A DNA stretch of 64,000 nucleotides, taken from NCBI GenBank assembly GCA_033439295.1, contig JAVTLE010000019.1, positions 62,001 through 126,000 on the forward strand, read 5' to 3'. The position numbers and the translations under genes are program-made. The notes below the pieces were generated by a model, which ran no database searches, was not told the DNA's origin, and saw only the letters and a program-made list of their open reading frames with translations. The DNA is from Deuterostichococcus epilithicus (Eukaryota; Chlorophyta; Trebouxiophyceae; Prasiolales; Stichococcaceae). Each line of letters starts with the position of its first letter. Position 1 is the first letter of the stretch. Below are positions 1,424-46,937 of this stretch, piece by piece.

Positions 1424-4400
1424 ATGACGAGCCACACGTATGGAGGTGGCCTTGGCACGCAGACGGGGACAGTCGAAAACTCACAGTATGGAGACACTGG
1501 CGCCTCTCAGCTGGACCCGACAGCACATGGGGCAGACTACGGGTTCTTGGACTTCACCCAGCAGGATCCCGTCGGCGCGTCAGATGGCGCGAACGGCGGC
1601 TCGTACCAGTTCACATCCTTCAGCCAGGCATTGACCTGCGCATTCTCAATTTGCCCTCGGAAGCGCTGCGCGGTGTTGTGAAATCCTTCCAAACTCCCAT
1701 GCTGCAGTTCAATGATGCACGTAACGCTGGAGATGAACGCTGCGTGACCTGCCCAAGGAGTGCGATACATCGATGGCCGCTCAGCGCCCGCACCACCGAG
1801 GCTGGCTGCCATGCGTGCAGGATGTCGGCGACTGGGGAGACGGCGGGTCGCAAGCCGCGGCAGTGGTGAGCCTCCGATTTTGATGGAGTCTGGCCGACAA
1901 CATGCATGCATTGTGGCATGCATGTTTCAGTGCCGCCCAGCAGGCCGCCCATCTCTGAAGCCAGCTGCGTCTTTGCCACTTCGCCGAGAAACATCACGTC
2001 GCTTCTCAATGACACTGCCAAATCCTCCTGTACAGGCCAATGCGGCACTGGACCCGATTGGCGGCGCGGCGGACGGCTTGAGCCAGCTGCGTTTTGAGGA
2101 TGGCGGCTTTGAGCCGGAGGACCGCAGCGGCGCCGCCTCGGAGCGGGAGCTGCCGCCCTGGGCCTGCGTGTGCGCAGAATGACTCTAACTATCATTCAAA
2201 CACCAATCAAACTATATGACGTCATGTCGCATCTGTCGCAATGCCACCGCAGAGGTGCCGTTGCACGGCAGGAGCTCCATGTGCAGCGCAGTCTGCCGCC
2301 CTGGGCCAGTGCCTGTGCGTGCATCACCAGCCTTGTCGCTTTTCGGGAACATTGCATCGCAGCACACGGCGTTGTGAAGGTGCAGCAAAGGCGCAAACTG
2401 ACTTCAGTGTCGAATCACTTCCGCCGCACCAACGGCAGACGGCGCCGCCTTTGGGCAGACGGTGGCTGACGTGGGCATGCGTTTGTGTGCGTGCGCAGGT
2501 ACTGCGGCATCCACTCGCCAGCGAGCGTGGTCCGGTGCCTGACCAGCGGCAAGTGGTTTTGCAATGCGCGCATCCAGGCCTCCGCCTCCTGCATCGTCAC
2601 GCATCTGGTGCGCTGAGTTTCCTGCTACCGTGCGATGCTCTGGCTCCGTCCACCAGCACCTACATCCGTGCTCTGTTGCGTCTCTAACAGGAGGCGGATT
2701 GCTGCAGTGAAGCCACTTGGTGCTGCATAAATCATCTGACGCGAGCCGGCATCATGCATCTCCAGACCCTCAGATGATCCCTGCATCAACCATCGTCGCA
2801 TGCAGGTCAAGGCGCGGTGCCGGGAGGTGGCACTGCACAAGGACAGCCCGCTTGGCGATGCGGTGCTGGAGTGCTACGCCAGCGGCAACCGCAACGTGTT
2901 TGCGCTGGGCTTCGTGCCTGTCAAGTCTGAAAATACGGTGTGCCTCTGGCCAGTGAAGTCGGACTCGCACTGCGGCAGATGCATGCGAGCTGCCTGGTGG
3001 ACCCTGCATGCAGAGCCAACATCCAACCGGATTGAGTTGCCCGGTCGATTGTCTGCATGTACCCCTTGGTATTGTTTCCTGCGGTGGGTCTCAGGAACAG
3101 CATTGGGGCTTGCTTGAGGCCACAAGCTCAAGCAGCACGAAACCGAATCTTTCGGTCATTTACAACTAGGCAAAGCAACAACATCCGCGTGGCGCCGCCG
3201 GCACGGGATGTGCCACTAGGGGCTCCACCAGGCGAGGAGGAGCCGGAGCCGGCTTTGGAACTCCTGTCAGTGTCAGACCGTGACGCCCAACACCGCCTTG
3301 TGCGTTGCCAGGTGGTGCTGCTGGCGCGGGATACGCCGGCGGGGGCACCCGCCGTCAAGGAGCTGGGCCTGGACCTGGCGCTGTGGCAGCCGCTCATCGC
3401 AGACCGCCAGTTCGTGGACTGGCTGGTCAAGCACCCCTCGGACCAGGTGCGCGCCGCTGGAAGGCGGCTGCGCGCAGCTTTTGGCGGAGGAGGAAGGAGG
3501 AGGCGCTGCGATGTGTCAGGCTCACAGCACAGGAGGCGACCGTGAGGCAGCTGACTGATGCGCAACACACGGCCGTCTGAAATGTGAGCCAAACAGTTCT
3601 AAGCAATGGTGAACAACAGTCTGGCATGGACATCCAAAAATTGACATAGTCTGGTTGCGCAGCTGTGCCTTAGGCGCGGCTGCGGGCGCAGCACCCGGCT
3701 CCGCCGAAGCCGTGCAAAAACGGAAGCCAGCGCGATCGATTGGATGGAGACACGTAACATGCCTCCCCATCAGCGCCTGGTGTCAGCTCCTGACCTCCAC
3801 CCGCTGCACGCCGCAGGAGCGGCTGCGGGCGCGGCACCTGACCCCCGCGCAGATCACGCGGCTGGAGGAGGCGTGGAAGGCGCGGCCCGATGCGAAAGTG
3901 GAGGACCTGGACGCGCCAGGGGAGAACGAGGAGGCCGCCCCGGTGGCGCTGCGCTACGAGGTGCGATCCAGAGTCCATTTCTCACATGTTCCGTTGCCTG
4001 TTCCATGTAGTGTGCCAGGTGGGTCGACTGGTCCAGAGGGGCGCTGCCTCGTTTCTGCGGTCCCGACGTCGCAAAGAAGAAGGTGCGGCAGCAGAGGAGG
4101 ACGAGCGTGCCCCGCCCGCGGTGCTGCTGCGCTACGGGGTGGAAGTGCGCTTGCCGAACGCCGCGGCTCAGGTGACCCTGCCTGCGTCTGGAACGCGCGG
4201 GGTTCGCATGCGGATTGCTGGGCACGGCGCGCAGGCGGATGGGAAAGAACTGGAGCTCATGGCTGCCAGCTGGAGGTGCAGGGTGGCTCTGCTGATGTTC
4301 CTCTCCAGTACCTTGCGGCAGGCGGCGTGCGGCAGCGGGCTCCCGCCGAGGCTGCGTAGCGCTGACGGGCTGCTTTTGGACCTGTTCAGACGAGGTCCTC

Positions 4401-5004
4401 TACGCGGCGCCGCAGCACGCGCACGAGGCAGGCCGCCACCGTCCTGCCGCAAGGCTTGCAGATCCGCCACAGTCCTTCCAGCAGGCCTGCCAACTTCCGC
4501 TGCCCGCACACAGGACGCGTACCAGTACCAAAACACCTTTGGGCCGCTGGTGAAGACGGAGGCGGACCACGACAAGGCAGTGCGGGAGGGGCAGAGCCGC
4601 GAGGGCGTGTCCGTGCGCTGGGACATGGGGCTCAACCGCAAGCGGCTGGCTTTCTTTTCCTTTCCCCGTGACGAGGCGCAGCTGCGGCTGGCGCCCGGTG
4701 CGCGGCGCTGCATCACTGCTGCACTGACGCGGCGGACTTGTGCATGTTCCGTACTCTTTGCCGCCCCTGCTGCTTGGCAGGGCCGCCTGCTTCCTCTTGG
4801 CTGGGGCTGTGTTATCCCAAGCGCTGGGGCCACAGGGCATGACATGCTGGAATTCAGGAGACTTGGGCGACTTCGGCTCCATGGCTGACTTGTGGCTGCT
4901 TGCTCTTGGAGCGGCAGCGATGGTGCGCGCAAGCTGACGGAACGTGTCAATCGGCCCGCCATCATGGCGTGCGCTTCGCTGTCGCACCCAGTTGCAGCAT
5001 GGCC

Positions 5005-5060
<56 letters not shown>

Positions 5061-8000
5061 TGCAGCGTGACTGCGGGCTGAGGCAGCATCGGCGCCGCAT
5101 GATGCACAACAGGCAGGACTCAGGCAGGTCTGACATGAGCCAGCGAGCCATTCCATCATTTGCAACCTCAGGTGACGAGATGCGGCTGCGACACCCGGCG
5201 CCCAACATCGGCGTCCCACCCTGGACGGGCACCGGCACCATCGTCCGCGCCGGCGGCGCGGTATGCAATTCTTCCTCCAGCTGAGCCCTCTAGGCACAAT
5301 CACAAAGGGTGCCTGCACCAGCACAAGCTCGCTGGGCTCTCTTGGCCGGCGTGAAAGCCTCTGCCGGCCTCTGAAGCTTTGGCCGGACAGCCAGGCTCAT
5401 GATTGCGATTGCACGAACAGCGCAGTAGCGCCGCAGGGCTCGGAGGAGGTGGCGCAGCATTGGTGGGAGGAGAACCGTGCTGCCGGCGCCCGTATGCACC
5501 CACTCCGAGAGCTCACCGGCCGCCAATTTTCTGTCCAGAGCACAGCCGGGTTCACTGCTGGGTTGCCGTTTCGATGCCAAGCAGGGCTCGGAAGAAGTGG
5601 CGCTGGAGCTGCGCGAGGGGAAGGGCGCGCCGCCGGCACCGACGGACGTCATCACCGGCTGGGCGGTGGAGTTCGTGTGGAAGGGCACCACCTTCGAGCG
5701 CATGCAGCGCGCCATGCGCGTGCTGGCAGTCGAGGAGACCTCCGTTTCGGGGTACCTGTACCACCGGTGCGCCATTTCTGTTTCCGTCCGGTTTTCTGTT
5801 TGTGAGCTTCGATCCAAGACTCCGAATCTCGAAGATCTACAAATTTACTTGGGGCATGCTGGCCGTGGACGGACAACTGTGTCGAACCACGCGCACCGTC
5901 AAAGCGCCTGGGTTCTGTCGGGGGTGTTTGACATCGTGATCGTGACGTCACTTGGGATGCGCTGCTTGGCAGCTGAGTTGCATGTCGTGGATCACTCGAC
6001 AGGGATCGGATTCGCAAATGCGTGCTCTGCTTGCAGCCTGCTGCAGTCCTCGAACAGACTGTGGTCTCTCCGCAGTTCTCAGGGTTGTGTGGGGGCATCT
6101 CCGCCTGCCACGACCACTGCCTGTATGGCACCCGCGACTCTCAGACACCTGGCCCAGTCGCCAAGCAACACAGACCCTGCACAGGACTTGCATGCTCAGC
6201 CGGCCGCTCCGCTTGCCCCGCAGGCTGCTGGGGCACGACATCGAGGCGGCGGCGCTGCGGGCGGAGCTGCCGGCTCGGCTGTCGGCGCCCGGCCTGCCGG
6301 AGCTCAACCACTCGCAGGCGGCCGCCGTGCGGGCAGTGCTCCAATCGCCGCTGTCCCTCATTCAGGGTGGGCGCACGTGCAAGGCTGCGAAACCCAGGAC
6401 ATCACGCGGCGCAGTGTGGGGCCTCTGGGCCGTCTGCGGCTGCAGCAGCAGCTGAAAGTGCCGTCTCTCTCGTCCTTTGCTGGTCAGCTGTCAGCATTTG
6501 TTTTTTCGTTTTGGAGAACCGCCAGTCCGGGGTTGCTCAGGCTGTGCGTGCTACATCGCTGCAGGGCCGCCTGGCACGGGCAAGACGGTGACATCCGCCT
6601 CCATCGTGTACCAGCTCGTCAAATCCGGCACCGGCCAGGTGGGCCAATTCCTCCTCACCAGCGCTGTCCTCTGGGGGGGACACGTGCTGCAGGGCGGGGC
6701 CTGGGCCTGAGCCCCACCCAGTGCCCAGCACCAAGATGACTGCAGGGATGGCTGCCTGTTTCCCGAGGAACAACTCCAGCAGGCTCGTTTTGCCGGCCGG
6801 TGGTCACTTTGCTGCTTCAATAACCCCGATCGAAGGAAAGTGCTGTCGGCGGCATTGTCTCATGTGGCGGGAGACGGGCTGCCTGGAAGACAGTGGCTTG
6901 GAAACCATCAGGCTTGTAAAAATGTGTCCCTTGTTAAACACCCCCTCCAATGCCTGCGCGCAGGTGCTGGTGGCGGCGCCGTCCAATGTGGCGGTGGACC
7001 AGCTAAGCGAGAAGCTGGACTTTGCGGGGCTCAAGGTGGTGCGCCTGGCGGCGCGCTCCCGCGAGGAGGTCGCCTCCCCGGTGGAGCACCTCACGCTGCA
7101 CTACCAGGTGCCCGCCACCTCGGTCATGCCCACCAGCTTCTCTGCTAAGTGTATGTGGATTCTGCTCCTGCAGCTGCTGCGCCCTCGCCTGGACTGCCTG
7201 GCAGCGCCGCTTTTTCCCCACCCGCGCTTCCGGTGCCACCTCTCTGGATGCGGCTCTGGTCTCCGCTGCAGCAGCGTGCAGTCGGCGGCAGTGTCACGCT
7301 GCTGCAGATGCCTGGCGTTGCCGCTGCCGCCGCTGCTGTGTGCATGTGACTGGCAAAACCGCATGTCTAAGCATCACGACCCCTGCTCCGACCACACCCC
7401 CAGGTGCGGCACCTGGAGCTGCCGGGCCGCGAGGACCTGCGCAAGCTGCAGCAGCTGCGGGAGGAGCAGGGCGAGCTGAGCGCCGGTGACGAGGCGCGGC
7501 TGCGCCGCCTGCAGCGGGGGCTTGAGAAGGACCTGCTCGCGTCGGCGGACGTGGTGTGCACCACCTGCGTCGGCGCGGGCGACCCGCGGCTGTCCAACTT
7601 CCGCTTCCGCAAGGTGCGGGCTGGTCGGCATGCATGCACGGGCGGGTCTCGTTTTTCGAAGTCTAAGGGGGCAGCGACACTCGGGAGAAGGCGCCGGGGT
7701 AGGACTTTCGTGCCACGCGGCCTGAACTGCTTTGGGCGCGGGCGGCCTGACGGTCAGGATGTCATCTTGGTCACGCGTCAGGCCTGAGATTCCGAAGCGG
7801 CACGCTGCCCCTTGGTCCAAGTTCTGTCTAGACGACGGAGCAGCAGGGTCGGAGCGTCTGGCAACACTGCAGCTTCCTTTTCCCAGCTTGCTTGCTCCAC
7901 ACAGGCGCTGCAAAAGGGGGGATGAAGCGACGTGCGGGCAGGCGGACGATGCTGCACCAGAGCGTGATCCAGTTCATGAACATACTCGGTTCCCCATTGA

Positions 8001-11000
8001 ACCACAGGTGCTGGTGGACGAGTCGACGCAGGCAACAGAGCCGGAGGCGCTCATCCCCCTGGTCATGGGCGCCAAGCAGGTGCCATGTCAGTCTCGAGAT
8101 CGTCGCTCTCAGTGCACATATCGACGGGCGCATCGCTCGGTCGAGAAAACTCGGGCGTGGACGAGCCCGGGTGCCTTGTGAGTGCCTGGACACGAAACAG
8201 CGCTCTCCCACCTGGGGCACTGTCAAGTATGCCAATGCGGAATTCATGCCCGCGCAGACCCGCCTGCACGCTGCTGGTCGCTGCCGCCGCACGCACCGAC
8301 GTCCACGCTGGCGCTTGTCGCTGCCCGCAGGTGGTGCTGGTGGGCGACCACTGCCAGCTGGGACCGGTGGTCATGGACAAGGCTGCGGCGCGCGCCGGGC
8401 TGGGGCAGAGCCTCTTCGAGCGCCTGGTGCTGCTCGGCGCCAAGCCCCACCGCCTGCAGGTGGGCGCCCAGCTGCAGCCTGCTGCTCCCCTTCGTACCAT
8501 TGTAGCCTGCTGCTCTCCTCCATGCCATTGCAGCCTGCTGCACTCCTCCATGGTCTTGATGTGTGCGGCCAATAATGCAGCAGAAGCTGCGGTCTCGCCC
8601 TGCACCGCGCCTCCGCTACCGGGCGGTGGCGACTGCCCGGTCCGGCAGCACCTGCACTACTTCGCACCGTAAATGCACGGTCCCAGCAGGGTGACAGCTG
8701 CACAGCTCAGCAGCGACCCACCAACAGAGCTTTGCAGCACCATCACGGACGAGCACCGACCTGGTCACGCGGCTTGACCATCTGCGTTCGTCGCCCTGCC
8801 GCAGGTGCAGTACCGCATGCACCCGGCGCTGTCCGAGTTCCCGTCCGACGCCTTTTACGAGGGCAGCCTGCAGAACGGCGTCGGCGCCGCGGAGCGCTCC
8901 GCGCCGGGCGTCGCCTTCCCCTGGCCGGCGCCCGACCACCCACTCATGTTCTACGCGCAGCTGGGGCAGGAGGAGATCTCCCCCTCCGGCACCTCCTACC
9001 TCAATCGCACAGGTGCGACAAACCGCCCACCACCGCACCCACCGTCAACTGATCTCGAGACTGAAGTCGACTGCGACATGGTCCGATCCGATCAAGGGAT
9101 CCATACTCTGCGGTCAAAATTCAGACAACCCTCCTGTCACATCCACCTGGTGTGACCTGGGAAGGGTGTGCGGTTCCACTTGCGCAGCACGCAAAAGCGC
9201 AGCCACCTGAAAGCAAGCTTCGCTGCATTTCATTCAGCTGGCAATCCAAGCCTCTGATGTCAGGAAGACGCGGCGTCTGCCCAAACCCAGGCCAGCGCTG
9301 ACGCACTGGCTCTCGCCCCGCCAATGCCGTGCAGAGGCAGCCACTGTGGAGAAGGTGGTGACGGCGCTGATGCGCGGCGGCGTGACGCCGGACCAGATCG
9401 GCGTCATCACGCCATATGAGGGGCAGCGCGCCCACACCGTCACCACCATGCTGCGGGTGCGCGCCTGCTGCACTAGCTGCTGGAGGTGGCCGTGCTGCAT
9501 GCATGGCCAAATGATGGCTTTGCGCTGAGCTTAGTCGCACCTCCGGCGCTGGCAGAGATGTGGCTCGCGCTCTGGGGGCCCAGGTAGAGTCCTGCAGTAT
9601 CTGATAAATGGCCTGATGTCGTGGGGCTGTGTTCCCACAAGCCGTTTTTCTACTCCGCTTCCTGACGTTATCCCAGGTCTGCGCCTCAGACGCTTTACTA
9701 GCCCTCCGCAGGTGGGGCCGCTGCGACAGGCGCTGTACGGCGAGATCGAGGTCGCCAGCGTGGACAGCTTCCAGGGTCGGGAGAAGGACTACATCATCCT
9801 GTCGTGCGTCCGCTCCAACGAGCACCAGGCGCGCTCTCTTGTGTGCACAGCGGTCACAGCCGATCACCGGACTCCTGCGCCACAGGTCACCACCACATTT
9901 GGCCTCGACGCCTGCTTTGGCTGCGCCAGGCCGCACGAGGGTGCCTGGCCAGCACGGGGCGCCGCCGCCGGCGCCCTGGCGCTGCTGGCGGTCTGGCACG
10001 TTGAGTGGGCCGTGAGCCTGGCAGCGATGGCACCAGCGTCAGCAGAGCCGCGAGCCTGGCAGCAACGGCTGAGCCTCTGCAGGGCCGTCGCTGCCACCCA
10101 CACCCACACTCAGCTTGCTGTCCACTAGGCTGCGCCGGCACCAACTCGGCATTGGGTAGCCTGAAAGGTCCCCCGACCCGACTAGCTTGAAGCTTGATGC
10201 CATACCCCCGCTTTCCTCCTCAATCCTTGCGCAAGCTGCCTCTGTTCGCAACACCTGCAACACCTGAGCAGGGGGTGGCCGAGCCTTTCAGGGTTTGGGG
10301 CGCATCATAATGCGGTGCCTCCAGGTCACTGAGAACGCGTATCTGGCTCCGCTGCACAGGGCATCGGCTGCCCGTCAGACCTGACAGGCACCTCGACGCG
10401 GCGCTCACGCTGGCGGCAGCACCGTCTCACCTCCCCAAGGCCACTTGCCCGGTTTCCGTGAGCACTGCTGACGTCCTCCCTAACATGATCCAATATGATA
10501 TCGCCGCGCAGGGCATCGGCTTCTTGTCGGACCCTCGGCGCCTCAACGTGGCGCTCACGCGCGCGCGGCTGGGCGTCGTGGTTCTGGGAAACCCGCGGGT
10601 GCTGTCCAAGAGCGGGCTGTGGAACGCGCTGCTGTGCCACTTCCGGGAGGCGGGCGCCCTCGTGGAGGGCCCCCTGTCCAACCTCAAGCAGAGCCTCGTG
10701 CAACTGTCGCGGCCCATCCGGGTGCGGCGCCCCTGATGTTGCTTGCCACCAGTCACTCACGGGCTCGGCGATGTTTTCAGGCTCAGGAACGGCGCACTTG
10801 GTGCCGTCAGTTCTGTTTGACTTCAAGCAGAGCCGCGTCCATCGGGCGGCGCTGCACCTGCCGGCGCTGCACCTTCCCTCGAGCCGCGCTGCATCGCGAC
10901 TCGTGCTGGCTGTCATGCACCTCCCGACCGATGCTGATGTCGTTCGGAGTTCTTTCGCCTGTGCAGCGCTGGGTGCCATGCATCCTGGCAGTCCTGCATC

Positions 11001-32195: not shown

Positions 32196-35100
32196 TCAGT
32201 TGGCGGCCGCAGCCTCCTTGTTCTTGGCGGCCGACCCCTTGGGCTTGGGCCCCAGCGACGGCAACCCCTTGACTGTCGTGGTCTCGGCCGCGGTGCCGTT
32301 GGCAGTCGCCGCCGGCGCCGCCTTCTCAGGCTGCAAGATCGTACACGCAAAACTCAGGCAGGCGTGAGCCACAGGCATGGGCCAGAGCACAGGACAGGCC
32401 GCGTTCTGTTCCGGCGTGCGCCGCGCGCTGACGTGGCAAGTATCAACCATAAACTTTTCACTTGTTCAGCTTCCTACAGGAACAGCGGCTTACAGCACGC
32501 ACAGCGCAGCACCGCGCTGGGACTGCCCATGCATGCCCTGGCATCGACGAGACGGGCCCAGATGCAAGGCCTGGGCCAGCGCGCATGGTTGCTCAGCGAG
32601 AAGGGTTTGGGCCTTAGGGTTTAGGGCGCGGCGCACCTCCTCGGGCTGGGGGTCGGGCCCCAGGTCCAGCTGGCCGCTGCAGTAGTGGTTCTTGAGCGCG
32701 CCGCGGATGTCAGACTCCGCACAGCCGGCTCCCCGGAAGTGCTCCACCGCCTCGTCCAGCAGCGGCCGCCACTCCTGCAGGGGGAATCAGGAGCAGGGGA
32801 TGAGATGACAGCAGCGTCGTGGGGTGGACAAGCTTGAGGTGCCCAGGAGGATTTCTGCCGCCCCGCCCACCAGCGACCGACGGCCCTGCAAGGAGGGTCT
32901 AGGGGAGTGGTTCAAGATGCAGAGGCGGGGTGGGGGCTTGCAGGCTGTGCCGCCGGGCGGAGGGAGGCATCGGCAGAAATGTGCCGAGGCGCCAGGCCCA
33001 GGACGCCAGGCGATGGGCGACAGAGCCTGACGCCGCGTCTCAGGCAGGTAGCCGGGCAGCCAGAGGCTGCAGGAAAGAGGAGAAAAAGGAGGAGAGAGTA
33101 GAGGCACCTGGCCAGCGCGGGCGGCGAGCTGCGAGCGCTCATACAGGAAGTTGCCCCAGTTGAGCAGCACCTGCGGGACACGGCAGGTCTGTCAGGTTTT
33201 GGCAAGTTGGGGATCGGGGGCACGATGCACGCATCTGAGGTCGCGACCGAGTCCCAAGCTGAAACGGTGTGACATTGATGTGCATCGGATTGGCGGCTGC
33301 TGCATGCGCCGTGGGCCAACCAGGCCACAGTGGCTTTGGGCGCAGGCAGGGGTGACAGAGCATCTCAGCAGTGCGAGGGCAGAGGGGGGGAATGAACAGG
33401 GCGCACGTTTGCGTAGGCAAAGAACTCCTCCTCGGGCGCCTGCGGCTCTGCCTGCACTGCCGACTCGCCCTGCACAGCAGGCATGGCTCCCTTGAAAACA
33501 AAACTCAAGTTTCCTGTGGGTCTCCAATGCTGTGTTTGTTCTTTGGGTTCAGCAAAACACGCATGGCACAGTTGATGAGACCCTGTTGCTGCACTCAGCT
33601 GCTGGCGGCTCCTTGGGAGGACGAACCACAGCCGTAAGCAGCAAATACCTTGTCGGCAGGCGCTGTCGCCGCGTCAGCATCGGCCGCCGGCTTGGCCTCG
33701 TCGTCGCCGTCAGCGGCGGCCGGCTCCTGCGCCGCCGCCTCCTTGTCAGCTGACTCCTTCCCGGCGGCTGCGGCCTTGTCAGCTGCGGCCTTGTCCTGCT
33801 GCGGCCGCGTCTTGCGCTGCTCCTCGGGCACGGCAGCCACCATGCGCTTGACGTAGTCGAAGCACTTTTCCCAGTGCGCGTCGCCGGCCGCTGCCTGCGT
33901 GGTAGGTGCGACGGCTCGATGCGCTACGACAGGCGCTGCTGCCGCTGCTAATGTCCGGGTCTCGAAACCAGCAGGAGGAGCGGACAACTGGCAGCTGCGG
34001 AGCCATGCGCCAGGCAATGGTTAAAAGGGCTATCGGCAAGCAGATGCTCAGTGGAACCCTTCCCTCTGCACCTTGCGGGAGCTCAGTGAAGCAAGCCCAG
34101 GCATCCGGCGCGGTTGGCACATCATGGCAACAGCCGACCTCCCATCCCAGATATCGGGATCCACCCCCCCCCCCCACNCTTTCTCAGAAGAAGCATCAGC
34201 ACCAGAACGCAGGTGTGCGCCACAGCACCTGCTGTGGGGACAGGGCGTCGATGGCGGCGCACTGGGCGCGCGCCGACCACTCCTGCAGTTCCCGCTGTGC
34301 GTCTGCCTGCTCCTTCGCCAGGTCAGACTCCTGAAAACGGGAAACCGCTGGTTGGGTTTGGGGTCAAGGGGCTGCAAACATTACCGCCAGGGAGAGATTG
34401 CTGTAACAGCTTGAGAGAATCGGAAATGAGGTGCACAGCCGATGCATACGATGCGGCTGGCGGCTCACGAGGCAGCAGCACTGGCACGACAGGCTACGGC
34501 ATGCTGAAAACGAGCAGCGGAGACACAGCTGATATGATCAAAATTGCAAGAAAGATTGCGAGGCAGAGGACAGTGCGAAGTTAAAACAAAGGTGCACACC
34601 GTTTTCTGCTTCGACGCGGCAGGCGCCTTGTCGGCTGTCCCCTCGCCCTCCTCCGCGGGCTTGTCCTCTGACTTCCTGCTTCCACATGACACACAGCACT
34701 CCCAGTCGGCAAGTGAGAAAAACGCAGCGGATGTGCTCGCACTCTGCGAGGCTGTGTGAAGGAGCCTGTGCATGCAGCTGGCGCGCGGGGCTCGGGAGCG
34801 GTCCCAGCGGGGGCTCCTCCAGCTGGCCTGGACCTGCCGGGCTGGCTGCAGCATGCGCCGCGGGCGGGGGGATGCCAGGGGAAGGACCCCATGAAAGCCT
34901 CACCGGTTGCCGACGTTGATGCCGGCGGCCAGCTTGGCGCGCTCCATCTCCAAGCTGGCCAGGTACTGAAGCGCGTCCACGTGCTCGCCCTTGACGCCCA
35001 GGGCCTCATTGTATTTGGCCTCCGCCTGCAGGGGGGGCCAGCAGCACTTGAAACATTGTTCTCAGTGCGGTGCGCTGGTGCAGTTTTGGGGCCATGTGAT

Positions 35101-38100
35101 GCGACAACAGGCAGGCAGGTGGATGAGGGGCTGAGGCCTGGCGGCTGGTGGCCACGGCTGCATCCAGGCTTCAGACCGGCAGTTGGGAGGCGGCTGTTGC
35201 AACCGTGCAGGCCCTGCCGCAGGATCGATTGGGTCCGGCCTCACCTTGGCCCACTGCTCGTCGACCTGCGCGCGCACGTCGGCGACGTCGCGGCCGTCGC
35301 CGGCGGCGTCGTCCAGGTGCTTACGCGCCACCATGGTGAAGGTGTGCCCCCACTGCACCAGGCCTGCAGCACACAGTATTGCCTTTCAACGAAGTGATCT
35401 CTGTGTTGCATTGTGAGCATGCGCCACCGTGGTGAAGGTGTGCCCGCACTGCACCAGGCCTGCGGCGCAGCAGGTTGCTTTTTCCATCGGCTAGATTTCC
35501 GCTTGTTGGTGTATGTGGGCGGGCTCCGCCCCTTGGTGTGGGTGTAACCCCACTGCGCCATGAGGCCGATGCTGCATGGAGCGACACCGTGACCACACCA
35601 TCGTGTCTGAGCGCCTGTCCAGGCATCTCAATCCACAGGCGGCGCAGCGGGAGGCATGCGAGGAGAGAGTCCGCACGGCGCGCAGCACTAGCCCCCTGCA
35701 TCATGAGGCGTGCTTCTGACAACGCCTCATGAATTGGAGGCGCAGTGCTGCGTGCTGCAATACTGAGCAGCTGCAGTGGGCTGCGAAGTAGGGTTTAGGG
35801 TGTCAGAAGCCGCCTGTGCTGCAGCCGGCGGGGCTCACCGGAGATGGTGACCTCGGCAAACTTGTCGGCGGCAGCATCCAACAGCGGCAGCGCCTTGTCG
35901 GCTCGCAGCGTCGCGTCCATCGCCTCCTGTGGCGGTCCGGAGCTCAGGGTTTAGCACATTGCGGGGTTGCCAGGCAGCGGGGTGCGGTCTCAGGGGCTGG
36001 ACGACTGGTTCTGTGACGCTGCAGACGCTGGTCGTCCTCAGCGCTTGTGCGGGCACTGGTGGGATGACGGTGCGGGCACTGGTGACTCTGTTGGCAGGAC
36101 ACTGCTGTGGAAGGTGGCGTGCACTGCCGTCGTCTCTGTCCGAAGGCTGTTTGGGTCCGCGGCGCTGTGACACTGCTGTACTGATAGTGTGGAGCAGCAG
36201 CACTGTTCAACGGCGCTGCGCCGCCGCCGGGCAGACAGTGGGCGGCCGTGCTAAACCCTAGCCCCCAGACCTGAACCCGCACCTGGATCTTGTCCCAGCC
36301 CAGGTTGTGGAGCTCCACGTGGCGGTCGAAGTCGATGCCCGTGGAGTCGCGGAACAGGTGCGCAAAGTCCACGATCCACTGGTCGATCTCCACCACCTCC
36401 GGCCCCGCCGGCTGCTGCTCCTGTGCGCGGGGGCGGCAAAGGCCGACTCAGTGCTCTGCTCGTGGCAGGGGGTTCAGGCGGGCCAGGGCGCACTGGGGCG
36501 GTGAACGGCGTGTCCTGCGGGTGACTCCTTGGGATCACGCGTGTCTGCAGGCAGCCACCCTCCCTGGGACCAGGGCGCCAGGGGCGCAGCACAGCGCGGC
36601 CTGCACGGCAGCGCGGCCTGGCAGCGCAGGTGCGGCGGCGGCAGAGCTCCGGAGCGAGGGGAGGAGCCCGACAGCAGCACAGAGGGCCGCACCTTTGCCG
36701 CGGCGGCGGTGCGCTGCGCCTCCAGCGCGCGGGCCTGCTCCAGCAGCTTCGCCTGGCCCTGGATGAGCCGCATCAGCTGCTGCTGCTCCTCCAGTGGCGG
36801 CGCCGGCACGTCCGCCTGTGAGAGGCGCAGGGGACCTTCGGGCATCACGCATTCGCAAACTCACAGCAGCTGCTCTGAGGGTGACTCGCAGGAAGGGCCC
36901 CCGCCAGGCACCCGGCCTCAGGCGTGGGCTCACCACAGCAGCAGCGTCCCGCGATGGCCGAGGCAACCGGCGCGCATCATGCCTGGCCGTGGCCCTGCAG
37001 CCGGCTGTGCCGCCATGCACGCTCAGCCAGACGTGCTCGGAATTTCAGCCCTGTCTGGGGGTTCAGGGCTCCAGGAAGGACTGCACTGCCCCACCTCGGA
37101 GGCGACGGGCACCAGCTGCAGGCGGATGGGCGGCAGCGCGCCGGACAGGCGCGGGCCATGTGGCCCCGCTGACGACGCCTCCTGCATCGCCTCCTGCATC
37201 GCGCGCTGCAGGTCCGGGCGGCTGGTCACCGTCACCAGGTCGCCCTCCCTGTAGCATGAAAATACGAGCGGGAATGAGGCGCCATTCAAGCACAGTATCG
37301 ACTGGGTGTCGTGCAGAATGCCGGCCGCTGCTGTGTCACAACACCGGCTTGAGAGAGGGCGGACTCAACGCAGCTGCACGCTGCCCTGCTGCATCGTGAT
37401 CTCTGTTCGTTCCTAAGCAGCCTGCTGCAGGACTGAAGCCAGGCCTTGCAGTTGCACCCACCCCCGCCGCCCGCGTCCCTAGACCCCCTGCATGTTGTGC
37501 CTGCCTTTGCGTAGCACGGTCGGAACTTTTGATTACAAGGCGCCACCACCGGCTGCCCTCACCGGTCGAGATATTTGAGGGCGAAGGGCGGCGCGTCAGG
37601 GAACTTGCTGCGGACGCCCTCCAGCATCTCGGCGTACGTCACGTTCGGCCCGATGTGCAGCAACCGCGTCTCGTCGCCCAGCGTGCACTTCGCCTGCGAG
37701 TTTGCGGAAACATGCGGGCTCGGCACCAGGGCGCAGCGTGCCACGACCGCACCGCAAGGCCGTGTGGAGCAGCACCCCTGGTTGCTGCCTGTCACAGTGG
37801 ATGCAAATGCAGTGCGGGTAGCAAGACCCTGTGACAAGAACCTTGTGCCTCTGGTGCTTGTCGGGCCCGCAGCCGCCCAACTGGCGGTGCTTTTGCAGGG
37901 AGGAGGCAGTCTGCAGGCAGACAGTCGGGGGCACCTGGAAGACGGAGATCTGCTGCCGCGGCGTGCTGTTGGCAGCGGTCTTCCTGCGGCCGGCCAGCGC
38001 GCCCGAGGAGCCCGCCGGCTTCTTGCCTGCCAGGATGTCCTTTAGCCGCTTCTCCGTCGCCTGCAGGAATAGAAAACAACAATGATCCGCCTGCTTGTGC

Positions 38101-39895
38101 AAACAGCAATGATTCGTCTGCTTGTTCAGCGCTCCATGCACGGCTCCGGTTCCCTCTGCCAGAACAGTTTATTGGGTGGCCACTCGCATCGTCTCCTGCC
38201 CTGCATGTGACGGTCGACACTCCAGGCCACGTGCGGGCAGCCTGCCTGTCGCCCCGCATGCTGCACAGCTTCCGGGCCCTTTTTATTTGGTTGCTGAAGC
38301 CTAGTCCTGACCCCACCTGGTTCTCAGGCGGCGCATCGTCCAGCTTGTTGACTTTCTGCACGTCCGACAGCGCCTGCTTGTACAGACCCATTGCCTCCAG
38401 CGCCTTAGCGCGCCGAAGCAGCGCCTTCTGGTTGTTGGGCGCCGCCTCCAGCGCGGCGGTGCACTCGTTGACTGCCTCCTTGTACCTGCGCGGCCGCCGG
38501 CGGCAGGGACTGAGCGAGGCCGTGCCCACAGGGCCGGGGCTGCTGACTGCAGCGAGCGCATGCGGGCCGTTCCGCGGTTGTGCTGCGTGTTTCACCTCAG
38601 GCGCCCACTCGGGAGGCATGGCAAAGGACTACAGCAGAGTGCGCTGCATGCATGTGCGCTACTTAAGAAGTGACATACCCAGGGGAGGACAGGCACTGAA
38701 TAAGTAGCGCAGGTTCCATATCGGCGAAAACTAAATACCGGCAGCTCATGGCGGAGCGCTAGCTGCCAGGGAGTGTGTGCGCCGGACGTATCAAGTCGCA
38801 TGAGAGCCTGCATGCATGGGGAGCCGGCAGCAAGCAGAAGGGACGCACTTCTTCAGCATCATGCTGCAGGCAGCTTTGTTGCTGTGCAGCAGCACCGCCT
38901 CCGAGTGGCCCTCCGGCAGCATCTTGAGCGCGCGCTCGTAGGCGTCGAAGGCTTTAGAGTACTCCTTGCGCCCAAACAGCTTGTTGCCCTCATCCTTAAG
39001 GCCCGCCACCTGCGCCGTGTCCGCCTGGAAGCACCACAGGGGGGTTTTTTGGGCCGCAGGCAGTGCTCACTGCAGATGATGTCATCGTGACTGCCTGCTT
39101 CTGGTGACACCTCTGTAGGCTGCCTGAGGTCGGGCGTCCTGGCCGCCGTGCCCCTCGGTACGCCAGCGCCGCGCCTGCCTGCATGTATGGGTGGGGCATG
39201 CAACAGTGCAACTGCAACAGTGCAGCAAAGGAGAAAGCCAGCTGCGAATCCCAGTCTTGTGCAAGGGCTCTCGATCGCACAAGCCGGCGATGAGACCAAA
39301 ACGTCGACATCGACATCTGCATCTGCGCCGCCACAGCGCAGTAGCCGCTCTGCAAAAGTACTGAATGATCGGTATACGTGGGTGCGTTGCAGCAGCCGTC
39401 TTACTTCACAGGATGCGAGCTTCATGCACCGCAAAGGGCGCTCGGCGCGCAGCCAGCGATCATTGCCAGCCCAGGGATATTGAGGGTGCAACTGTGCCCC
39501 CCGGAAATGATGCCTTGTGGGTGCCGTGAGGTATATGCTGCTGTTGACGGAAGTGTGAAATACATTTGCCTGTTGTAGAAGCGACGGTGGCATGATGATG
39601 CGCCTTGCGCCAGGGCAAAGGCTGGCGATAAGACAGGCGTGCATGCCATGCTGGTGGCTGTCTGCTCGACAGTGCATGCGTCTCCGAGTGCTCCGACACG
39701 CATATCTAGAGGATTCTGATCGATCTGGACTCACTCTAATAACCTATGGGTCAACACTATAATGTTAAGACTTTCGATGCAGCTGACATGGGCGAGGGTT
39801 GCGGCGGACTCGCCACGGCTACCTTGCTGATCCATCGCCCTCACCTCGCTGATGTCGCGTGGCGCAGACGACGGTCTCCGTGCTGCCTTTCCCAT
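32196..39895 (-). CDS. TPR-PB1 protein, CLMP1/PHOX-like
   Basis: Plant-type TPR plus PB1 protein. The Arabidopsis relatives are CLMP1 (needed for chloroplast separation) and the PHOX proteins; the UNC-45-like features suggest a link to myosin or actin. Eighteen exons: 39895-39845, 39024-38849, 38485-38317, 38060-37935, 37693-37563, 37248-37095, 36815-36693, 36420-36283, 35926-35839, 35363-35245, 35025-34904, 34675-34600, 34330-34229, 33894-33649, 33469-33407, 33170-33108, 32774-32637, 32330-32196; 739 aa, close to the ~750 aa of CLMP1. It starts MGKAARR, like the plant MGK start. Exons 2-3 carry TPRs (LKDEGNKLFGRKEYSKA), exons 5-6 the PB1 domain, exon 8 the family block EIDQWIVDFAHLFR, and exons 10 and 16 repeat units QWGHTF and NWGNFL. 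The exon 1 choice is inferred from phase and the MGK start. Confidence 0.85.
32614..32626. repeat. Telomere-like micro-tract in CLMP1-like intron 17
   Basis: TTAGGGTTTAGGG about ten bases inside the intron, with a related AGGGTTTGGG just before it. Confidence 0.6.
35421..35472 (-). repeat. Exon-edge echo 1 upstream of CLMP1-like exon 10
   Basis: A 52-base copy of 35325-35376, which covers the acceptor and first codons of exon 10 (minus strand), with about four differences and offset 96. In minus sense it reads GLVQCGHTFTTVAH against GLVQWGHTFTMVAR in the true exon. It lies in intron 9. Confidence 0.9.
35529..35577 (-). repeat. Exon-edge echo 2 upstream of CLMP1-like exon 10
   Basis: A third, more diverged copy about 100 bases further upstream in minus sense, reading LMAQWGYTHTKGR. 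Three near-equally spaced copies of one exon start show repeated tandem duplication. Confidence 0.75.
35789..35800. repeat. Telomere-like micro-tract in CLMP1-like intron 9
   Basis: TAGGGTTTAGGG, in the same intron as the two exon-10 copies. Confidence 0.6.
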
Positions 39896-40821: not shown

Positions 40822-41032
40822 CAGGACCACCGTGCCGCTAGGTATGCTTTCTCACCTGAATTTCCAGTATACACTGACTGGCGGACCTTGATCCTTCCAG
40901 TTCTTCTGATCATGTGTCGTCTGTACATTAGGTGGTTCGTGCCAGCAGCGGCGCACCGCTGCACATGCATCGCCGCTGCGGCCCACGCGGTGGTGCCGCG
41001 TGACGCCCAAGCACGGCGCGTCCTCTGCAAAT

Positions 41033-44000
41033 ATGCGGCACCCGGACGGCAGCCAGCAGCCCGCTGCACTCGCCACGGCGGCGCTGCGTCTCGAGGCGCA
41101 TGCATGCGAGGCGCTGCGCAGATGCGCAGACCGGCGTGCATCAGCGAGGCATGGCGGCAGGCGGCTTGTCACCTGCGCTGCCAGCAGGCAGGAGGAACCG
41201 CAGCGCCAGCAGGAGTCGCTGGACCTGCCTTCGGAGCGCGATGCCTCGTCAGGTCCGCCCTCACTCATCGAATCCCGTGCATGGATTGGCGCAGGGCTGT
41301 GCGTTCAACTTTGCTGCGGTGCCGGCTGCCGTCTGACACCCCATGCAACAGCTGTTCGACAGGGCGTCAATAGGGCAAGAGTGTTCCTCGCGTTCCCTAT
41401 ATCGCCACTCCTCACTAGCAGGAGTCTGATCCTCGCCGCGCCACGTCCATGCAAGCAGGCCCGTCCTGGAGCGGCGACTTCAGGCCGGGTGACGTGCTTG
41501 GCGGCCGCTACAGGGTGCTCGAGGTGCTCGGCCGCGGCAGCAACGGCGTCACCTACAAGGTGGGAACTGCCTTGACCGTGCAGCTGCCGCCACAGCCAAC
41601 GCGCTGCGGCGCCGCAGCCTTGTATCGTCCATCTCGGTTCTGGGCCCACACAGCGGCACACACTGCACGGACCCCTTTTTCAACCCCTGCTGCAAACCCA
41701 GCTCACGCACACAGGTCCTTTTAAACCCTCGTGTCCCGCTCAGAGCGGATTTAGACATCCCTCCACATGCGGGCAGGGAGCCACTCGGAGGCAGCTCGCA
41801 GCCGTTGCGCCCGGTGGCAGCCGAGGAGGCGCTGTCGCAGCAGCGGCTGCGGCGGTCAGAAGGCGCTCGACCTGCTCCCGCTCCCTCGCAGCCAACATGC
41901 ACAGCTCCCTGGCACGGTCATATTCCCGACGGCTGTTCTCCTGCAGGCCGAGCTGCTCCATGGCGATGGCGGCGGCGTGCCGTCGCTCCCGGTCGCAGTC
42001 AAGGCGCTGTCGCTGCGGCGGCTGCGCGGCGACTGGAAGCAGCTAGACCTGTTCCAGCGAGAAGCCAAAACTCTGGAGGCACTCGACCACCCGGGCATCC
42101 CGCGCTACCTGGACTACTTTGAGGAGGACACCCCCCAGGACAAGGGCTTCTTCCTTGTGCAGGCGAGATTTCGGATTCAGGGTTTTCACATGTTGAAATT
42201 GGGTGTGACACTTTGGATGGTTTTCCGCAAAGAGAGGGGGCGACAGAGAAGTTGTGACCTACACCGTCACGTCGTTGCACGCGCTGCAGCTTGCGCTGCT
42301 GCTGCGCCCAGCCGGGCAGCAGCGGGCACGCCGCAGAGGCAGGCGCTCGCAGGCGGGACGTGCACGCCCCCCTGCTTCCTGCTGCTGCGCGTCAGTCGCG
42401 GAGGCGCTGGATGGGTGGCCGGCGCACACCCCGCTGCAGATGTCGTTGAGCCACGTCTCGCGCTGCTGCGCGGTGGTCCGGTCTGCCAGGTTTCAGCCCG
42501 AAGGCGACCACGAAAGTGCTCGACCACAGATCGCTTCAGCACAGGACCCTGTTGAGACCGGACCACGTAGAAGAAGTGCACAGGAGCTTGCGGATGGGCG
42601 GTCCCCTGGCGCAGCTGGACCATGCCAAGCGAAATGGAGTGGATATCAAAAGGCGTCCAGTGGCGTTGCTCCTTCGCATGCAGGAGCTGGCGCAGGGGCA
42701 GTCCCTGGCTCAGCTGGTCGCCGGCGGCTGGCGCGGCAGCGAGGCTGACGTCAAGGCCCTCGCGGCGCAGCTGCTGGACATCCTGCAGTACCTGGCGGCA
42801 CGCCGGCCGCCTGTCACCCACAGGTGGGCGCAACCTGCGACACGCCTGCAGACGACTGGATCCTGTTGAATGTGTCGCGGTGCCTGACAGCCCGTCAGCC
42901 TGTCGCCCACCGATGCGGCCTGTGGCGGGCTTGCTGCCGCCGGACCCGGGGGTCCAGCTGCCGCGCCGCGGCCGTGCTATCCCCCTTGCCCATTTCCTCT
43001 GCATGGCGTCACTGGCATGGGGTTCACTTTGGGATATCATCCAGATCGCCTCTTGGAACGACGCTACCGGAAGCCGCAGACGCACGTGAGGCACGCCGCA
43101 ATGCCGCCCTATGCATAAGATTGTGGCATTCAGGTGGGCATCTAGATCTTTGGCCTTGCAAGCGCAGGGACGTGAAGCCGGACGACAACATCCTGGAGGG
43201 CGACAGACCCTTTAGGGTTCGTGTTTTAGGGTTTTAGATATATTTAAAAAATGTGACATTCGAGTGGGCAATCACTGCTCTGACCCTACAAGCGCAGGGA
43301 CGTGAAGCCGGACAACATCATCCTGGAGGGCGATAGACCCGGCGGCCGCGTCTTCCTGGTGGACTTTGGCGGCGTCCAGGTTTGCCGCTTGACAAGAGCG
43401 CCAGGACCACCCTGCACCTTTGCTGCTGGCGGCATGCCCTGCAGACACCGTACCTGGCTTCTTTGCCTGTGTCCGTGCATGGCTCCGGTGCTGAAGTGCT
43501 GCACCTGAGCAGGGACAGCAGGAGGCATGACCCGTGAAGGCGCCACTGTTGCTGCGCAGGCGGCAGCCAGCGGCGCGAGCGGCATCGGCACCACCGTCGT
43601 TGGCACCTACGGTGTGCCGCCACGCCCCTGTCAGTGCTCTCGACGCGTCCTGTTTGCAACAGCGATGCCGAGGCTTCACCCTGCAGTCTGTCGTCTGAAA
43701 CGAGGTTCAATGTGTGCCTCTCCCTGAGGGGTTCCCAACAAGAACTGGTTCAAAACCCTGAATCCTACATCGGACAGGGTACATGGCCCCGGAGAGCTTC
43801 CGTGGCGCCGCGGTGCCGTCGTCCGACCTGTACGGCCTCGGCGGCACGCTGCTGTTCCTGCTGTCAGGCGCGCGCACCTGCTCACTCCCGCCTTTGCGCC
43901 AGCGCCCTCCTGGCGGCCGCGCCAGAGCAGACCGCTGAACAGCGCTGGTCCGGCCCCCATGTCGGCACCCGCTGATGGCCAGCCATGCACGCCATGGGTG

Positions 44001-46937
44001 CCGCCACATGTGAATTGTACTGCAAGGCCGAGCTGGGAGCCCCATCTAAAACCCTAAGCCCTTCCGCATCACGCGCCGCAGGCAAGCCGCCCAGCGCGTT
44101 CCCGGAGCGGGGCCTGCGTCTGGACTACGGGGAGGACCTGGTGGCCGACCCCAACCTGGACGCAGTGCTGGAGGGTTTACTGGAGCCGCTGACGGCGGAC
44201 CGGCTGTCTGCAACGGAGGCGCTGGAGCTTTTGCGGGCGTCACCGGACGAGGCCAGGTGTGTGGTGCAAGGATGAATCCTGTTGCAGCTCCAGTGCTGCC
44301 TGGAACCAGTGCAGATTGAGGGCTGGCGAGGCGGAAGGGGTACTGCGGAGCTCCAACGCTGCCCGGGCGATGCCGCTATCACAGGCAGGCACGGTCAGTG
44401 TTCTACCTGCCAGCCTTGTGAGGGTCATCGAGCTGGAAGTCGATCTGGCTGATGCATGCGCTGCGCATGCGGCAGGGGCCGCCAGAGTGCTCACCGGCGC
44501 GGCGGTGGCCGCGAGAATCTGGCGCCAGGGCAGCCGGCGGGCAGCCGCGTCGTGCTCAAGCGCCGCGGCCGGACGCTGGAAGTGGACATCCCTCCGGCAG
44601 GCCTGACAGGTGCGGTCTAGGGTCCCGGAGTCGTCCAATGATCGCTGAAGATCCGTGTTGCTTCTCTCGGCCCCAGGCTATCAGTCTAAATGCTGCGGCC
44701 TGAGTGGATGCTCTTCCCACAGGACGCTGCGCTGCTGAGCATGTGTTCCAGAAGTGTCATAGCACCGCCCAGACGCTGCAGGTGTTCCGTGGCTCTTGTG
44801 GCTCAAGCACACCGGGCTCCGATGTCTGCCTCGTAACTGAGCTTCGATAAACCCTAAACAGCACCTCGTGGCTGCAGACCACATTTACCTGTGGCCCCGT
44901 TCCCGCAGGCGAGTCCGTGTTCACAGGGGGGTTCGCCGTTGCCTGGAATGCATTTGTGGCGGTGTGGACGGTTGGCGCGCTGGCCGGCGGCGGGGTGCTC
45001 ATGGCACTGTTCTCGCTGCCCTTTTGGGGAGCGGGGTTTGCGCTCGGCAGGTGATCCGATCGATTTTCACCGCTGCCCTCGCTCGCGCAGGCGAGACCGT
45101 GTTCACAGGGGTGATGGGTTCTATCAACCTTGTGCTGGCCTTCAGCGGTGTGCGCGAGGCGCTGGTCTCGGTGCTCGTTATCGGCGCTGCATTTGCGCTC
45201 GACAGGTGATCTGTCGAGTGTGTGTTTGACACCCAGCGCAAAGAGTTTCAAGGCGCTCTCCTCGCTGCCCTGACAGCCAGCTTGAATTCGAATCCGCCAA
45301 CCCAACTCGATCCTCCTCTCGCAGGACGGCACTCGGCAAGGCGCTGCTGCGGGAGCGCCTCGAGCTGGGCGGCAAGCGGTGGGCGCTGCGGCGGAAGCTG
45401 GCGTCCCTGCGCGGCGGCGAGCCGGACTGGGGCCGCGGCCGCCAGCGCGGCACGGCAGGACGCACCCAGGTGCTGCATCCGCCCATCCCGGCAAGGGCAC
45501 TACAGGCCCGCCAGTCTTCCTGCCTCCTAGGCTGGAATGCGGGCTCGGGTGGTCTCTGCTGCGGCGGGAGCGCCGTTCGTACATGTGGCATGCATTGCGC
45601 CGGCAAGGGTGCGCTTTGGTGTCTGTGAGGTCGTGGAGAGTACGTGTTTCAGACCAGACACCAGGCATGCGGCTCACCCTCCGTTTCCCACGAGCCCAAA
45701 AGCAGTGTTCATACTTTCCACGACTGGGCACGGGACGCTGTGTGGCACAGTGCCTTCGTCTCGCTTGCTGCACGTCTTTGACTCGACAAATTGCGTGCTG
45801 CAGGACCTGTCGGGGGCACGGGTAGTGACGGTGGCGTACGTCAATGGCGCCCCGCAGACGCAGGTGTGATGCGATTTGCCGCCGTTGAGTCTCACTGCCA
45901 GCGCCTGGCTCAGGCACTGTGCAGAGCAGACGATGCCGTTTGAGGCACCCGGCAGCGGCACACTGTTGCTAACAGGGGCGCTGCCGCGTGTCACGCCGCG
46001 AGGGCGATCCGCCGGCACCATTTGGCACCGTTTGACCCCATCTCGCTTCCCCTGCTCGCGGTGAGGCGCCCCTTGCCGAGCGCGCGCCGCTGTGCACGCC
46101 GCGGCACCTGCTTCCTGCTTCCTGATTCCTGCCGCATGCCTCTTCAAACCAGATCGAGCTGGTGGAGGGCGTCACGAAGCACGTCTTCGGCGAGGGGCTG
46201 GACATCGTGGAGCAGCAGTGGCTGGTAACAGAAATCAATCAGGCGCTCGAAGCGGCGCGTGGGCGGCCTGTGGACATCGCGCCTACGGAAGATCGCGCGG
46301 TGGTACGAATCTGCATTTGAAAGCTGAGATATCTTATATCGTGAGTCGCACAAGTGATTTCATGGAGAGCATATTTGACGAAAGCAGGCGTTTTCCCCAT
46401 CGGTGGAAGTCGCGCTTGCATTTGCTTGCGGAGGGCTGCGCGGTGGTGTGAAGTTCATACCCTGAGTCTTGTGTCTCCCTGATGCACTGGCTTACCAGAA
46501 AAATGTTCTGCATGCCAGCGAGACGACTCTCCGCAGCACCAAACCCGCATTAGTCTGCCGGCATTGGAGGGCTTGCCGGGCGACGGCGGAAAGAGGAGGA
46601 ACCAAAGACAATGATGGCGAGTCTGTTGGACGTCAGCACTCGGATGAGCTCGCTGGGCCACCCCAGCAAAGCAGCTGAGTTGGGTGGTCGGCGGCCCTGC
46701 CATGGCCTGCCTGCGCTAGTTTGAATTCGACCACACGGGCTCCGGCGCCGCTGCTGACCCATCCGCGACGTGCTGTCCGTGCAGAACGACCCGGACGCCA
46801 GCGACGACGACATGCCGTGGGGCGACGACTTCGGCTCATCCCGCTCCTCCATCGCTAGCCGGCGGCTGCACGGCGGCGGCAAGTGGGGCACCGGCCGCAT
46901 GGGCGGCGGGTTCGACTCGTTCGACGATGAGTTCTGA
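41033..46937 (+). CDS. Putative plastid Ser/Thr kinase with C-terminal membrane region
   Basis: Active-looking protein kinase. Exons: 41033-41276, 41456-41559, 41947-42162, 42684-42823, 43298-43379, 43560-43611, 43778-43867, 44082-44256, one ending 44609, 44909-45050, 45325-45469, 45804-45863, 46153-about 46299, 46785-46937. The first exon is Arg/Ala/Ser-rich and ends in a transit-peptide-like RRLVTCAA. Kinase motifs: GRGSNGVTYK, PVAVKALSL, HRDVKPDN (formed across an intron), VDFGG, GTYGYMAPE. After the kinase comes a VVLKRRGRTLEVDIPPAG segment, a hydrophobic hairpin ending LFSLPFWGAGFALG, an IELVEG..FGEGL segment and an acidic GDDFGSS..FDSFDDEF tail. This order resembles cyanobacterial and plant kinases of unknown role. 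Introns after exons 3 and 7 appear GC-AG. The catalytic-loop and membrane exons are duplicated. Start of exon 9 unresolved. Confidence 0.82.
43161..43210 (+). repeat. Dead copy of the kinase catalytic-loop exon
   Basis: A 50-base copy of 43291-43340 at an offset of exactly 130. It repeats the acceptor GCGCAG and exon 5 start. It reads DVKPDDNILEGDRP instead of DVKPDNIILEGDRP, then runs into TTTAGGG repeats with no donor. The flanking similarity starts before the acceptor, so the duplicated unit is about 130 bp. Confidence 0.92.
43211..43236. repeat. Telomere-like tract between the duplicated copies
   Basis: TTTAGGGTTC then GTTTTAGGGTTTT, directly at the end of the dead exon copy and before the next copy of the flank. 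Confidence 0.75.
44849..44858. repeat. Telomere-like micro-tract (telo-box sense)
   Basis: AAACCCTAAA in the intron before the membrane-hairpin exon of the kinase gene. A similar TAAAACCCTAAG lies at 44046-44057. Confidence 0.6.
45091..45205 (+). other. Duplicated, possibly mutually exclusive exon
   Basis: A 115-base stretch between GCGCAG and GACAG|GTGATC. Both ends are near copies of exon 44909-45050 (GCGAGwCCGTGTTCACAGG at the start, TTTGCGCTCGrCAGGTGATC at the end). Both exons enter in phase 1 and leave in phase 2, so either can join exon 45325 but the two together would shift the frame. This one encodes 38 intact codons with one shorter hydrophobic segment, where the main exon encodes a longer hairpin. 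Confidence 0.6.

Follow-up and report, generated by a model that had tools for sequence, protein, structure and literature searches.

Fifteen of the 104 introns (about one in seven) in the 64,000-nucleotide stretch of Deuterostichococcus epilithicus DNA analysed here, which we call the window, carry a same-strand copy of the border of an adjoining exon. Ten of these events are acceptor-side, four are donor-side and one doubles a whole exon; eight lie in UPF1, one in an SLC43-like gene, two in a CLMP1-like gene and four in a kinase gene, and the copy (the echo) is offset from its genuine counterpart by 96-182 bp in all events but one (47 bp). We regard it as probable that each echo is what remains of a small local duplication that spanned an exon-intron border and arose via break repair. 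An initial annotation of this DNA had described exon-edge copies of both types in the introns of these four genes, and our analysis supports it on both counts, with the 15 events restricted to those genes. The span of 1424-46937 that it had given narrows to events between 2113 and 45217 (outermost supported coordinates), as neither outer end yields a supported event: for the exon after 1424 the best score was 9-10, nothing above background, and the sole match of exon 46785-46937 scores 14 and sits 57 bp off the edge. Its offsets of "tens to a few hundred" bases were rightly short, and prove tighter.

Gene models were produced with a self-training gene finder, with N bases read as T. The window has a GC content of 61-66% per 4 kb, and the gene finder returned nine gene models with a median intron of about 300 bp, a donor consensus near CAG/GTGCG and an acceptor consensus near GCAG/G. 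No tRNA was found in the window, and Rfam gave zero matches at the gathering threshold. Pfam assigned an HSF, an MFS carrier, a protein with TPR and PB1 domains, a kinase, an ADF/cofilin, an LSM protein and a WDR19-like protein, and left one protein without a match among the eight submitted; the labels "SLC43-like" and "CLMP1-like" are taken over from the earlier reading of the sequence. The set of 104 introns was obtained after removing two HMM exons (4019-4171 and 9886-10011) that are superfluous to the UPF1 alignment. Without them, the UPF1 model aligned with human UPF1 over residues 166-971 of the 987 submitted, and because this alignment covers them, the UPF1 exon edges are well founded over those residues; elsewhere the exon edges are those given by the gene finder alone. 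As a separate observation, the ADF/cofilin gene model (48171-51014, minus strand) resembles SHOCT at its N-terminus (SHOCT_2 at 26.7 bits against a cut-off of 24), possibly an unusual fusion.

The events and their copies are as follows, beginning with UPF1.

2113-2174, plus strand: E8, genuine copy, 3' end of exon 2036-2169 with its donor; weak alone (score 17-22)
2257-2319, plus strand: E8 echo, exon end with donor, in intron 2170-2498, offset 144
2432-2482, plus strand: E8, second weak match
3189-3280, plus strand: E1 echo, start of exon 3312-3446, offset 123, AG lost
3667-3709, plus strand: E2 echo, acceptor and start of exon 3817-3960, offset 143
4092-4141, plus strand: E3 echo, 3' end of exon 3817-3960 with GT, offset 175-178
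5433-5490, plus strand: E4 echo, acceptor and start of exon 5585-5766, offset 148
6840-6880, plus strand: E5 echo, start of exon 6964-7107, offset 124, AG lost
10350-10415, plus strand: E6 echo, acceptor and start of exon 10512-10721 (GIGFLSDP), offset 150-152
10813-10873, plus strand: E7 echo (weak), 3' end of exon 10512-10721 without the donor GT, offset 139-142
29444-29486, plus strand: E9 echo (E9a), SLC43-like gene, end of exon 29275-29424 with donor, offset 47
29528-29565, plus strand: E9, further echo in the SLC43-like gene, offset 136
32842-32935, minus strand: E11 echo, CLMP1-like gene, acceptor and start of exon 32774-32637, offset 111
35421-35482, minus strand: E10 echo, CLMP1-like gene, acceptor and start of exon 35363-35245, offset 96
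35531-35560, minus strand: E10, older third copy
41801-41881, plus strand: E13 echo, kinase gene, exon 41947-42162, starting 32 bp inside the exon, offset 178
42581-42618, plus strand: E14 echo, kinase gene, acceptor and start of exon 42684-42823, offset 100
43117-43210, plus strand: E15, kinase gene, first copy, 51 bp of intron with the acceptor, then the first 43 bp of exon 43298-43379
43211-43246, plus strand: telomere-like filler with two TTTAGGG, exactly between the E15 copies
43247-43340, plus strand: E15, kinase gene, second copy, offset 130
44884-45063, plus strand: E16, kinase gene, first copy, exon 44909-45050 with 25 bp of upstream and 13 bp of downstream intron
45066-45217, plus strand: E16, kinase gene, second copy of the whole exon, exon part 45091-45205

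The strong events, with a gapped score of at least 22, are E15, E10, E16, E13, E6, E2, E4 and E14, and the weakest are E7 and E8. A second echo was found at three edges, beginning at 2432 (weak), 29528 and 35531. The E13 copy meets the exon edge only with gaps placed by eye.

That repeats in this window are concentrated at short offsets is evident from an ungapped same-strand diagonal scan over offsets of 20-3000 bp, with expectations taken from far diagonals. At offsets of 90-199 bp and a score of at least 18 there were 17 segments against about 0.18 expected; these represent 13 events once two segments from a coding poly-Q repeat (23719, 23725) and the double counting of two events are allowed for. 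The corresponding numbers were 7 against 0.12 at 20-89 bp and 2 against 0.65 at 200-599 bp, followed by a mild excess at 600-3000 bp (16 against about 3.8, of which 9 against 1.6 at 2000-3000 bp), and all nine segments scoring at least 24 lay at offsets below 200 bp. With gaps allowed there were 25 direct and no inverted pairs at 20-500 bp (score at least 17), 15 of the direct pairs lying at 90-200 bp. Merging left 19 pairs at 60-250 bp; 14 of them come within 3 bp of an exon edge, compared with a mean of 6.8 for randomly shifted edge maps (p=0.0002, 5000 shifts); the 14 include a pair outside the event list (50311-50501), two from E16 and one that is the second echo of E10, and the five that do not touch an edge are E13, E7, two purely exonic pairs and one purely intronic pair. 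The initial annotation had proposed aligning introns with their adjacent exons, using non-adjacent exons as a control, and within the window this does reveal an excess: 15 of 206 comparisons reached a score of 18 or more, against 18 of 1248 for non-adjacent exons (about 3 per 206) and 1 of 206 for the reverse complement. Score thresholds were picked after viewing the data, and the diagonal, gapped-pair, edge-touch and adjacent-exon tests overlap. When the 30-60 bases at each of 203 exon edges were used as queries, 13 matched their own intron at a score of at least 18 and none matched the reversed or the reverse-complemented intron; at 16 or more the counts were 15, 1 and 1, respectively. Edge-rank p-values were no greater than 0.02 for 12 of 203 edges, against 4.1 expected, a modest excess beyond the strong events that we do not claim as a hidden reservoir of further echoes.

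Several candidates were set aside. One of the 15 matches among the 206 comparisons, in gene 8 (offset 600, 95 bp off the edge), is not an echo; the poly-Q pairs near 23700 and the Lys/Ala-rich pairs at 33700-34670 were dropped as coding low-complexity sequence, and the exon-edge pair at 50311-50501 (61% identity) was dropped from the event list. Introns with an echo have a median length of 387 bp (15 introns) against 276 bp for the 89 without, a comparison biased by the greater room for a match that longer introns offer. Purely intronic short tandem repeats also occur in the window, at 8473-8569, 38074-38128, 49923-50021 and 50125-50209 with periods of 27-55 bp, and at 36480-36604 with a period of 87 bp; these periods are shorter than most of the border-echo offsets.

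The copies have decayed to different degrees. Over 15 aligned pieces (E13 left out, E16 at both ends) the exon parts diverge by 5-34%, and the mismatches fall 54, 58 and 48 on the three codon positions, of 235 sites each, which agrees with an even pattern (p=0.40) and departs from a 1:1:2 pattern (p=4.5e-7), although chance matches among the weak events would likewise yield an even pattern. These counts suggest that the copies evolve free of coding constraint, and the lack of a third-position excess suggests that the genuine exons have changed very little, even at silent sites (GC3 0.87). With their direct orientation, short offsets, graded divergence and no sign of coding constraint, the echoes bear out the earlier proposal that borders were duplicated locally and left as dead edges that vary in age. 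E15 is among the least decayed, and the exon part of E10 is identical at 37 of 39 positions. In the four least diverged pieces (E15, E10, E9a and the left side of E16), mismatches affect 34 of 114 intron positions, compared with 9 of 131 exon positions. The resulting ratio of about 4 is higher than the roughly 2 expected under neutral drift, with two intron copies set against one exon copy. This speaks against plain border duplication, and could reflect selection of the best-preserved exon matches, faster change in introns, conversion between copies or templated copying.

The anatomy of the junctions is mixed. A copied unit with both intron and exon is seen in E15 (51 and 43 bp), E10 (about 24 and 39 bp, with a spacer of 34 bp), E9a (28 and 15 bp) and E16 (25, 142 and 13 bp), which places these four among border-spanning duplications; in nine events (E1-E8 and E14) little or no intron part is seen, the visible extension being 0-10 bp. 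Intron-flank homology (p no greater than 0.05) was detected at 6 of 15 edges (E10, E11, E15, both sides of E16, and E9a) and not detected at the other 9 (E13 left out, E16 counted at both ends); a plain tandem duplication would be expected to show it through the whole unit, so this counts against that model. The copies are separated by 2 bp in E16, 4 bp in E9a, 17 bp in E11 and 31-128 bp in the other 12 events. The strict tandem duplication that had been proposed finds direct support in only a few cases, by the abutting copies at the kinase exon and the SLC43-like donor. In most other events, E13 excluded, the bases between the copies show no homology, and in E15 they are telomere-like filler. 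Simple head-to-tail duplication fits some cases; the spacers of 31-128 bp in 12 of 15 events speak against it. Of 10 acceptor echoes (counting E16 but not E13) 8 retain the AG, and of 5 donor echoes (not counting the further E9 echo) 3 retain the GT. The second copy of E16, whose exon part is 27 bp shorter than that of the first, keeps both splice sites and remains open in the same phase.

It is extremely improbable that the echoes as a whole are products of chance, low-complexity repeats or assembly error. The sequence is GC-rich and codon-biased, and the non-adjacent exons show that some three matches per 206 are to be expected, so that the weak E7 and E8 may be due to chance; both own-intron controls, however, were empty at the higher threshold, inverted pairs were absent where direct pairs were frequent, and for the strong events listed above chance is unlikely. 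A misassembly would be expected to leave near-identical copies, not copies that differ to the extent seen here. We also think it very unlikely that the echoes are functional, retained as alternative splice sites of either type or as alternative exons whose splicing is regulated or mutually exclusive. The copied exon of E16 has an acceptor score of 9.8 and a donor score of 9.7 (real medians 8.6 and 8.6), E3 lies within an in-frame exon-like stretch, and the acceptors of E4, E6, E10, E11, E15 and E16 rank in the top 10% of 1864 intronic AGs. Against this, the mismatches are even across codon positions, including those of E16 (7/7/6 over the last 72 bp, albeit small numbers from one exon pair), and reading through from an echo acceptor would lead to an in-frame stop or a frameshift in 8 of 9 cases, the ninth, E1, being without an AG. 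Nor is any copy required by the UPF1 alignment, to which even the HMM exon 4019-4171, which contains the E3 echo, is unneeded. Individual exceptions may exist: the UPF1 intron 3961-4513 (plus strand) holds a 75-bp exon-like in-frame stretch at 4097-4171, with acceptor and donor and containing the E3 echo, that is a possible cassette exon, and the E16 copy at 45091-45205 could be a mutually exclusive exon, though coding constraint is not seen. These two are possible candidates for the new exons that the initial annotation supposed to arise at times.

A more serious rival, which we nevertheless judge unlikely, is templated insertion, in which an intronic break is mended by copying a nearby exon edge that is pasted 30-130 bp away, so that the copy is not half of a tandem pair. 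The longer spacers speak for it, as do the E15 filler and the intron flanks without homology, which include those of E14 and E3, where the exon part is merely 15-16% diverged. It leaves unexplained, however, the abutting copies at E16 and E9a, and also why copies in nine events start at or just across the exon edge, unless their intron parts have decayed. An origin from spliced cDNA is not supported, as 0 of 15 echo edges run on into the spliced neighbour exon (lowest p 0.11), and the intron carried on both sides by the E16 copies means that DNA or pre-mRNA was copied. The idea that whole introns are created by duplication of an AGGT-containing segment (the Rogers model) is not clearly borne out: none of 102 introns reached a score of 14, one reached at least 12 (0.12 expected), three at least 10 (1.05) and 12 at least 8 (6.45), in a test of 40 bp on each side with shifts up to 3 that old cases could escape. 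Introner-like elements, in which one repeat family recurs in many introns, would have come into view at short range only, through a repeat search for copies up to 1000 bp apart and the diagonals up to 3000 bp.

In the border-spanning duplication that we favor, a staggered double-strand break would arise near an exon-intron border, the overhangs would be filled in on both sides and the ends re-joined, sometimes with added filler. The segment between the two nicks (about 40-180 bp) would then be present twice, mostly at an offset of 96-182 bp, and if a splice site lay inside it the gene would acquire a second acceptor or donor. Splicing at the copy beside the intact exon would leave the mRNA and the protein unchanged and turn the other copy into surplus intron, free to decay and presumably silent today, with the intron gaining roughly 100-180 bp per event. 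Border duplications could survive because one intact border is enough, while duplications inside exons would alter the protein and those inside introns would fade beyond recognition sooner. Such a sieve may account for most of the edge enrichment without a hotspot, although a hotspot is still possible. Break repair by fill-in and end joining is consistent with the direct orientation, which places the events among small tandem duplications in the sense of nearby same-strand repeats, with the size band, with the abutment of copies at E16 and E9a, and with the filler at E15.

The E15 spacer is 36 bp long, the first TTTAGGG begins at the base right after the left copy, and the flanks of the telomere repeat at 43211-43234 score 58 (null fraction 0.001). 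E15 alone has a telomeric repeat exactly at the junction, as in a telomeric insertion at a break; at the other 27 of 28 telomere-like clusters the flanks are without clear duplication (smallest null fraction 0.06). Telomere-like motifs as a general cause of the echoes were therefore rejected, with clear flanking duplication at just 1 of 28 clusters. The G-strand of the filler runs away from the 3' end of the left copy, the orientation in which telomerase would be expected to add it. A bolder reading, in which introns of this lineage are repair scar tissue, breaks near their borders are mended time and again by telomerase and CST-Pol alpha fill-in that duplicates the border and sometimes leaves filler, and this is a main engine of intron growth with occasional new exons and introns, seems to us distinctly improbable.

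Tandem exon duplication with alternative splicing is a known phenomenon, and E16 resembles it in doubling a whole exon with both splice sites; the other events differ from it in copying a single edge, and no coding constraint is seen. The closest published case among the matches listed is the potato RdRp gene, in which a tandem duplication across an intron-exon border copied the intron end and the exon start (PMC4974935). There too the duplication spans the acceptor border. However, the potato gene gained a new intron and exon segment, both spliced, whereas here the extra border apparently stays within a larger intron, and 15 introns of one window are affected, with differing ages (PMC4974935). 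CST-Pol alpha fill-in at breaks with 3' overhangs is an established mechanism for small tandem duplications (PMC8355091), and it leaves a short direct-orientation duplicate at the repaired break like those seen here; that system concerns Cas9-made breaks in mammalian cells and insertions below 100 bp, compared with offsets of 96-182 bp in the window. Similar enzymes may act here. Intron gain in Drosophila through duplicated exonic proto-splice sites (PMC2891723) likewise doubles splice sites by tandem duplication, but there the duplication sets the length of the new intron, and no clear case of this kind was found in the window. In mammals, telomeric repeats are inserted at double-strand breaks, with duplication reported at a minority, namely 6 of 130 rodent and 4 of 25 primate loci (PMC2246262). 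E15 shares with these insertions a telomere-like sequence at a presumed break site, and differs from them in that a 94-bp exon-border segment is duplicated around the TTTAGGG repeat (PMC2246262).

No account of a single genome with numerous dead borders of this sort appeared among the open-licence literature matches listed, a result that speaks only weakly for the absence of one. The process itself is of a known kind, and what is new is its density, its range of ages and its outcome of intron growth and silent second borders. The lengthening of introns and the origins of exons and introns are often argued from single cases, and a set of fifteen border duplications, graded in age and lying within about 43 kb, would form a readable record of one process, whose size band and junctions point to break repair. 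If the same is true genome-wide, the rates, survival and splicing outcome of border duplications would be measurable in one organism.

A search of genome contigs for UPF1 relatives returned 27 loci, one at 65% identity (L001), one at 55% (L002) and the other 25 at 25-34%; none was found in the viral contigs searched. No direct repeat offset by less than 300 bp occurs in L001 and two occur in L002, at 90-120 bp (score at least 17), but both loci lie in MAGs labelled bacterial and are too short, and too uncertain in kind, to act as controls. The UPF1-like helicase encoded on L001 (JAIYDP010000129.1, from a MAG with the label Verrucomicrobiaceae) has frame breaks resembling introns, and the contig is probably a eukaryotic contamination of the bin.

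Short rotations of TTTAGGG/CCCTAAA form 2 clusters in exons, against 1.1 in shuffles, and 23 in introns, against 4.6 in 200 shuffles (sd 2.2, maximum 11), although by raw count the telomere family comes third when 20 heptamer families with this composition are compared. Examples are found at 637-649, 32602-32626, 35789-35801, 43211-43234, 44848-44859 and 61858-61869. The intronic motifs could be repair scars or telo-box regulatory motifs.
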